This document shows, piece by piece, positions 3,966 to 6,075 of a stretch of DNA of 64,000 nucleotides. Source of the stretch: Pomacea canaliculata (lineage: Eukaryota; Mollusca; Gastropoda; Architaenioglossa; Ampullariidae); assembly GCF_003073045.1 (NCBI RefSeq), contig NC_037592.1:42899760-42963759 (forward strand). The letters are read 5' to 3'. Made by a program: the position numbers and the translations under genes. Each line of letters begins with the position of its first letter. Position 1 is the first letter of the stretch. The notes under the pieces are model-generated. The model was not told the origin of the DNA, searched no databases, and saw nothing but the letters and a program-made list of their open reading frames with translations.

Positions 3966-5095
3966 ATAGTTAGGAGACGGTCTATTATGATACAGCTGTA
4001 ACTTGTCTATCATAATAGACAGACTGACAGACAGCTGTAAGTTATCATAATAAACAGACTGTCAGACAGCTGTAACTTGTCTATCATAATAGGCAGACTG
4101 ACAGACAGCTGTAACTTGTCTATCATAATAGACAGACTGACAGACAGCTGTAACTTGTCTATCATAATAGACTGACAGACAGCTGTAAGTTAATATAATA
4201 AACAGACAGACACACAGCTGTAACTTGTCTATCATAATAGACTGACAGACAGACAGTTGTAACTTATGTATCATAATAGACTGACAGATAGCTGTAACTT
4301 GTCTATCATAACAGACAGACTGACAGATAGCTGTAACATGTCTATCATAATAGGCAGACTGACAGACAGCTCTAACTTGTCTATCATAACAGACAGACTG
4401 ACAGACAGCTGTAAGTTATCATAATAGACAGACTGACAGACAGCTGTAACTTGTGTATCATAACAGACTGACAGACAGCTGTAAGTTAATATAATAAACA
4501 GACAGACACACAGCTGTAACTTGTCTATCATAATAGACTGACAGACAGACAGTTGTAACTTATGTATCATAATAGACTGACAGATAGCTGTAACTTGTCT
4601 ATCATAACAGACAGACTGACAGATAGCTGTAACATGTCTATCATAATAGGCAGACTGACAGACAGCTCTAACTTGTCTATCATAACAGACAGACTGACAG
4701 ACAGCTGTAAGTTATCATAATAGACAGACTGACAGACAGCTGTAACTTGTGTATCATAACAGACTGACAGACAGCTGTAAGTTAATATAATAAACAGACA
4801 GACACACAGCTGTAACTTGTCTATCATAACAGACAGACTGACAGACAGCTGTAACATGTCTATCATAATAGTCAGACTGACAGACAGCTGTAACTTGTCT
4901 ATCATAACAGACAGACTGACAGACAGCTGTAAGTTATCATAATAAACAGACTGACAGACAGCTGTAACTTGTCTATTATAATAAGCAGACTGACAGACAG
5001 CTGTAACTTGTCTATTATAATAAGCAGACTGACAGACAGCTGTTACTTGTCTATTATAATAAGCAGACTGACAGACAGCTGTAACTTGTTTAGTA
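3966..5095. repeat. Minisatellite, ~39-bp unit, LINE-derived
   Basis: About 29 copies of a unit combining acagctgtaacttgtctat and cataatagacagactgac, with indel variants. On the minus strand the unit is 13 codons and reads repeatedly as [13 protein letters not shown]. That matches the protein expected just after the reverse transcriptase core of the LINE that begins at the array's right edge. A ~297-bp higher-order period is visible (4271-4567 versus 4567-4864). The unit contains TGTCTAT...ATAGACA, an inverted repeat, and the palindrome ACAGCTGT. Confidence 0.95.
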
Positions 5096-6075
5096 AGAGT
5101 CATCTCAGATTACTGATGGAGGACACAAAGGTGATGTTGGTGTCGCCCACCTTGATGTGACTGTGACTTGGTGGACAAGCAAGTGAAGATGGATTTCTTC
5201 TTCTCAAAGTACGAGGGCTTCCGTGTTATCATCGTTGAGTTTCAGTTTGTTTGTCACCATCCAGTCTTTGACTTCATGAATACAGACTTCTATGGCGCTG
5301 GTAGCAGAGTGAGACTACGGCGGTGGAGTGGAGCAGTACAGCTGTGTATCATCAGCATGTGATTGATGAGAAACGTTGTGAGAGTGGATGCAAGATGAAA
5401 GTAGCTTCATATACAGAATAAACAGAAGTGGGCCGAGTACTGAGCCTTGAGGGACACAACAAGAAAGTGGAGCAGGGCGAGATGTTTGACCATCAACAAA
5501 CACAGTCTGCGTCCTATCAGTGAGACAGGAGTTGAACCCCACTAGTGCAGGTCCAGAAATCCCCTACAGGGTGTGTAGTCTATGAAGGAGCAGAAAGTGG
5601 TCCATGGTGTCAAATGCAGCAGACAGGTCCAGTAGAGTTAAGACAGAAACATCACTACTGTCAAGGGCAGATAACATGTCTGTGTTCACTTTGATTAAAG
5701 TAGTTTCAGTTCTGTGAACAGGTCTGTATGCTGAGCTTGGGACTAAAGGTGGTGCTATTGTGAGCAGGCCCACAGCTGTGTCCAAACTACTTTCTCTGTG
5801 ACCTTTGAGAGAAAAGACAAGTTGGAAACTGGTTGATGACTGTTCAACACATTGACATCAAGCGTGGACTTGTTAAGGAAGGACCTCAGCAGGGAATCTT
5901 TAAACAAAGATGGGAACACACCAGTTACAAACTGACTAGTGACATTACGATGTTGGTGATGGCAGAAACTAAAATGTCTAAACACTTAAGAATAAGGTTT
6001 GTGGACATTGGGTCTAACTGGCAAGTTGTTGGATTAGCTTTAAACACATACAGCCATTCAAGAAGAATGTAAACT
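5096..6075 (-). mobile_element. LINE fragment (CR1/L2-type reverse transcriptase)
   Basis: A 5'-truncated non-LTR retrotransposon read from high to low coordinates. Frames at 5985-5755, 5785-5564 and 5542-5315 give successive pieces of one protein. The first has NLSFLSKVTEKVV. The second has LTLLDLSAAFDTMDH, the motif A region with its aspartate. The third has VPQGSVLGPLLF and HADDTQLY, the catalytic YADD-type box with FADD changed to HADD. Downstream (5290-5100) KDWMVTNKLKLN and KVGDTNITFVSS continue the family pattern. Frame changes between pieces and stops show it is dead. It ends exactly where the 39-bp array starts. Confidence 0.9.

Follow-up and report, generated by a model that had tools for sequence, protein, structure and literature searches.

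The 39-bp minisatellite in the window analysed here (64,000 nucleotides, C3:42899760-42963759, of a 440-Mb genome) derives from a 13-codon segment of ORF2, just after the reverse-transcriptase (RT) core, of a LINE that we take, from its motifs, to be CR1/L2-like. At a single place in ORF2, copies of this LINE form a graded series from one unit to at least 53, growth after the first duplication was local, and that first duplication is probably older than the window copy. The features concerned are given below, with the basis for each in brackets.

3992..5089, minus strand: 39-bp minisatellite, 30 units (TRF, unit scan, translation)
4169..4829, minus strand: exact 365-bp direct repeat at an offset of 296, 4169-4533 and 4465-4829 (unit order, identical unit pairs at lag 8)
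5090..5101, minus strand: LINE-to-first-unit junction, MTLTKQ... (comparison with L013)
5102..6041, minus strand: degraded LINE ORF2 reverse-transcriptase segment (many dispersed copies with edges at 5102 and 6041; RVT_1 in L018 and L028)
3572..3982, minus strand: downstream continuation of the window LINE copy, C-terminal end and 3' part (sequence comparison)

TRF reads the array at 3992-5089 as 29.4 copies of period 39, and a unit scan resolves 30 units at 39- or 35-bp spacing; the units run head to tail over hundreds of base pairs and fall within the ∼10–100 bp of a minisatellite. Each derives from the ORF2 segment QVTAVCQS(A/V)YY(N/D)R. The initial annotation had set the array against a CR1/L2-like LINE fragment, and this adjacency is real, as seen in the TRF result, the translation across the minus-strand junction and the matches to dispersed copies. 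It had also let the array end where the LINE begins, which holds for the segment at 5102-6041 but overlooks the LINE beyond the other side, at 3572-3982. The array lies inside one degraded minus-strand LINE copy, not merely beside a LINE. Relative to L013, the window copy lacks ∼20 bp of LINE just before the unit, and ∼340 bp directly after the array are also absent. Most dispersed-copy matches to the adjoining LINE piece span 5102-6041 (40 of 826 first-look candidates scored), and the loss of homology to other copies at 6041 probably reflects 5' truncation. With 30 units, the array in this truncated copy is among the longest.

The source of the unit is seen in LINE copies that contain it once. 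Such copies exist, with the unit within the ORF (e.g. L012, L013 and L018), and one window unit is identical over 34/34 bases to the single in-frame unit of L013. The unit pattern, at ≤3 mismatches, occurs at 492 sites genome-wide and its reversed control at none; together with the match to L013, this shows that the likeness between unit and LINE is not due to chance. Five relatives with open frames of 503–1133 aa and 44–48% identity each contain a single homologous stretch, which reads DHVSSVVKACYFHIRTLGRLRP or a near variant. The single-copy state in these relatives and in the single-unit copies identifies the unit as the 13-codon piece of ORF2 directly after the SS.RNLG motif, as originally proposed. 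The open frames of two dispersed copies, L018 and L028, match Pfam RVT_1 above the cut-off (1.3e-11 and 7.1e-15), and one 48%-identical relative, L121, has an Exo_endo_phos match (2.2e-9), that of an APE-like endonuclease upstream of RT. A search of solved structures with L018 gave no meaningful match.

The surroundings of the other arrays agree with this source. The array query gave 46 matches at 40 distinct loci, the window included, and 38 of these were examined. LINE sequence is present on at least one side in 37 of the 38: on both sides in 28, upstream only in 6, downstream only in 3 and on neither side in 1. Some flank matches are short or weak, the weakest (24 bp, E 0.009) being in L113, whose other side is strong, and at two further array loci, C8:11056659 and C6:8191057, the upstream LINE-to-unit junction pattern is present. 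The same satellite without LINE flanks had been named as grounds for rejecting a LINE origin, a test that this origin withstands: L099, where no LINE is recognisable within ∼500 bp, is the only examined locus of this kind. L099 would fit a satellite that existed beforehand and was captured by a LINE or came to lie next to one, but we regard that explanation as extremely improbable, given that single-unit copies carry the unit within their ORF, that a homologous stretch occurs in the five open-frame relatives and that nearly all array loci examined have a LINE context.

Junction patterns, again counted at ≤3 mismatches and with all reversed controls at 0, occur genome-wide at 240 sites for upstream LINE to unit, 416 for unit to unit with the 39-bp period and 163 for unit to downstream LINE. 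Pairing of upstream and downstream junctions, which drew on the first 100 listed sites of each pattern, gave 37 LINE copies among the matches listed, and 27 of these have exactly one unit. The unit is thus homologous to a segment that is single-copy in other insertions, as in a TE-derived repeat, and the expectation that relatives lacking the array have an uninterrupted LINE is borne out. The multi-unit copies among the 37 comprise four with 39 additional bp and others with 80, 85, 109 (two copies), 113 and 183. Individual loci contain 2, 3, 4, 5 and as many as at least 53 units in this ORF2 position and share one register, in which GCTAAA is followed by units CAAGTTACAGCTGTCTGTCAGTCTGYCTATTATGATARA and then by ARCTACGCAAGATCAG.

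Three loci have further repeat structure. The array of L019 (2450-2800) contains a 66-bp two-unit higher-order repeat. In L014 (∼2440-2934, LINE-sense), ∼500 bp that begin with GCCGGACGTTT-like tandem repeats separate the LINE from the units. In L058 (∼1697-1857, LINE-sense), a different piece of the LINE (positions 94-138 of reference E) is repeated ∼4 times at 40-bp spacing, a second LINE-born array in the making.

Growth after the first duplication was local. In a comparison of 309 units from 39 loci, which left out the segmental duplicates L005 and L102, the nearest unit is in the same locus for 64.9% of units versus 6.0% in shuffles, and within-locus units are closer than between-locus units in 34 of the 39 loci. 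L010, the sister of the window copy (support 100/99), lies on the same contig at a distance of ∼448 kb and contains a single unit. Within the window array, 9 of 22 unit pairs at lag 8 are identical, and the exact 365-bp repeat marks the recent duplication of a block of 8 units. It is the resemblance of units to their own locus, the single unit of the sister and this exact repeat that lead us to conclude that growth was local. Unit number also differs between loci with common flanks: L003 and L005 have 53 and 31 units within one segmental duplication (C11, 2.46 Mb, and C12, 0.28 Mb; 92–93% alike including the non-LINE flank), and L100 and L102, which are separated by 31 kb and share their downstream flank, contain 10 and 8. 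Of 339 unit intervals shorter than 60 bp, 300 have a length of 3 mod 4, a four-step spacing as expected from CTGT/CTAT slippage. Because the 365-bp repeat is exact, at an offset of 296, in an otherwise divergent array, part of the array length could be a misassembly. We consider this unlikely, since other loci have the same local similarity, and it would leave the origin of the unit unaffected.

How often the first duplication occurred is a separate question. One 39-bp junction recurs at 416 sites, whereas a 41-bp junction, the single alternative sought and the one expected from the GCTA..CAAG words flanking the unit, has 0 sites genome-wide, and for this reason we place the first duplication probably before the window copy. 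The proposal that the array was amplified in place is accordingly right for its growth, but probably not for its first step. Independent first duplications with a 41-bp period are ruled out by the absence of such sites. On junction sequence, the same 39-bp junction everywhere and the lack of a 41-bp one favour one first duplication, and the founding event may well have been single. A few loci, L077 and L117, have differing junctions. The upstream variant CTTGATAAAC, present by eye at 12 of 100 listed sites and also in L017, L021, L055, L032 and L034, and the downstream TATTATGAGC both contain TGA, exactly 39 bp apart, and TGA microhomology at this distance is a possible founding mechanism.

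The tree of LINE copies is less informative. Built with the units left out from the 41 candidate copies, of 61, that had ≥350 aligned bases, it is nearly a star in which single- and multi-unit copies are mixed. Unit number needs 7 changes on it (38 labelled rows), as low as in 96 of 500 shuffles, or 8 changes with L034 and L039 added (56 of 500). Unit number is almost unstructured on this tree, which is therefore compatible with many separate origins. In that case, which the in-place wording of the initial annotation implies, every dead LINE copy would have duplicated the same ORF2 stretch itself, the stretch being duplication-prone owing to its CTGT steps, foldback and short direct repeats. 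The scatter of unit number over the tree, the sister copies with 30 and 1 units and the quasi-tetranucleotide steps are in line with such separate births, as are a unit that folds somewhat better than shuffles (z -2.71, 3/200), the private, different junction of L077 and, in the LINE part of L058, the further array with 40-bp spacing, which is unrelated to this one. Nevertheless, the one 39-bp junction common to 416 sites, against 0 for the single 41-bp alternative sought, is difficult to reconcile with them. In addition, the clade of L014, L017, L021 and L023 (support 100/100) has a common decayed multi-unit block, which indicates that units travelled or were duplicated together. Separate births are thus rather unlikely, though they remain the most credible competitor to one ancestral duplication.

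The initial annotation held that amplification had kept the reading frame open, which fails for most of the array. The frame from MTLT in the window extends for 178 aa, about half of the array, before a stop, and 35-bp units shift which frame carries VTAVCQS. An excess of changes at third positions was sought in the units and is absent from every unit-number class (changes at positions 1, 2 and 3: 8, 6, 6; 19, 10, 10; 53, 31, 53; 27, 23, 25). Nothing therefore suggests a protein function for the repeated units, and a coding constraint on the units was rejected. The same result weighs against the idea of a coding VNTR, in which the protein of active LINEs would have included 13-residue repeats, variable in number, as a functional element. 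That 39 is a multiple of 3, that the insertion is exactly 39 bp long in 9 of 11 two-unit loci and that the frame is open through five units in L016 and, without a stop, through RT and two units in L028 would all suit this idea. However, among 49 loci with 2–8 units only 23 have an insertion whose length is divisible by 3, and the long-open-frame relatives have one stretch. We consider a coding VNTR very unlikely.

Multi-unit loci are biased to contig ends. Within 2.5 Mb of an end, a threshold picked after seeing the data, lie 21 of 40 array loci versus 14 of 100 listed single-junction sites (P = 6e-6; 16% expected by length); at 1 Mb the figures are 6 of 13 for long arrays versus 6 of 100. Of the 100 listed upstream-junction sites, 46 could be assigned to a class, and among these 11 of 19 multi-unit and 2 of 27 single-unit sites are near ends (P = 0.0005). 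A search with only the LINE part gave the 19 copies L010-L028, which behave similarly (9 of 10 multi-unit and 3 of 9 single-unit copies near ends, P = 0.02), although four of the ten multi-unit copies are one lineage. By size, 7 of 8 array loci with ≥12 units and 14 of 30 with fewer are near ends (P = 0.053), and a split by match length gives 12 of 13 versus 9 of 27. Unit number and distance to the end are uncorrelated within array loci (rho -0.08, P = 0.64), and the graded claim of more units nearer the end was dropped on this account. Of the LINE copies that most resemble the window copy, 21 of 39 lie near ends in any case; other minisatellites are likewise more abundant there (P = 0.025), and TTAGGG is absent from the last 400–500 bases of 8 contig ends. 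Given these last observations and the lack of a unit-number correlation, the bias is likely a property of the region.

Our preferred interpretation of these results, which we hold to be likely as a whole, is an ancestral ORF2 duplication followed by spread through retrotransposition and local growth in dead copies. In an ancestral CR1/L2-like LINE, 13 in-frame codons of ORF2 (39 bp), located just behind the RT core, would have undergone tandem duplication. The carrier of this founding duplication was presumably mobile, and retrotransposition would have dispersed the LINE with its ready-made two-unit seed. In single dead copies the seed would then have grown or shrunk locally, through 4-bp slippage inside units (35/39 bp) and multi-unit block duplication, with such changes more frequent near contig ends; meiotic recombination or replication slippage may have been the engine. 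More tentatively, and with the balance tipped slightly against it, the LINE could be a vector that scatters a two-unit minisatellite seed whose landing site sets its fate, with 1–2 units retained in the arms and growth near chromosome ends. If so, the seed-vector LINE would amount to an experiment, set up by nature and in replicate, on how minisatellite growth begins and what sustains it.

Satellites derived from TEs, including from LINE ORF2 and CR1, are already on record, in the cases collected in PMC9659126 and PMC6947457. The present array is a well-resolved new case with unusually complete steps; by title or abstract, the open-licence PMC literature yielded no description of it. Like chicken HinfI (which includes part of a CR1 ORF2), Phodopus PROsat and seal Pvc20 (from LINE-1 ORF2), it is a tandem repeat from LINE ORF2, but unlike these, as they are described in PMC9659126, it has a 39-bp in-frame unit and a visible series of 1 to at least 53 units in one genome. 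In Lathyrus sativus, as outlined in PMC7004042, satellites come from short arrays inside retrotransposons and expanded in a favoured chromosome region. Both systems combine short arrays in dispersed retrotransposon copies with only occasional expansion and one favoured region; in Lathyrus the carriers are LTR-retrotransposons and the region is that of the primary constrictions (PMC7004042), whereas here the source is coding sequence of a LINE, contig ends take the place of the constrictions, and single-unit ancestors occur alongside the arrays in one genome. Human TE-derived tandem repeats, in the survey of PMC3389668, likewise involve a first duplication and then local unit duplication, and some arrays (LTR12) were propagated by transposition. 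That survey covers many families and attributes only 6% of TE-derived arrays to established mechanisms, whereas here one LINE place is followed stepwise (PMC3389668). The length polymorphism region of mouse L1 ORF1, with 66-bp and 42-bp coding repeats, also has in-frame tandem units in variable number inside a LINE frame, but as presented in PMC3600994 it concerns a coiled coil, few units and whole families rather than a minisatellite growing in dead copies.

The start of minisatellites is poorly known, and this genome contains one array family in its unborn, newborn and grown stages. Dozens of replicate insertions of one nucleotide-exact gene place, in differing surroundings, make the effects of position, age and unit sequence measurable.

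Other repeats were seen around these LINE copies. By eye, a tRNA-derived SINE-like sequence (GGTCCGGTGGCGCAACGGTTAGCGC in L026) interrupts the LINE copy L026 between its two C pieces, and a similar sequence seems to lie reversed beside the window LINE copy, at ∼6200-6390. The window (1-64000) is also very rich in other minisatellites, with 96 TRF rows; examples have periods of 36 bp (1570-3174), 45 bp (21872-23206), 33 bp (26671-28775), 28 bp (37517-38434) and 38 bp (38678-39982).
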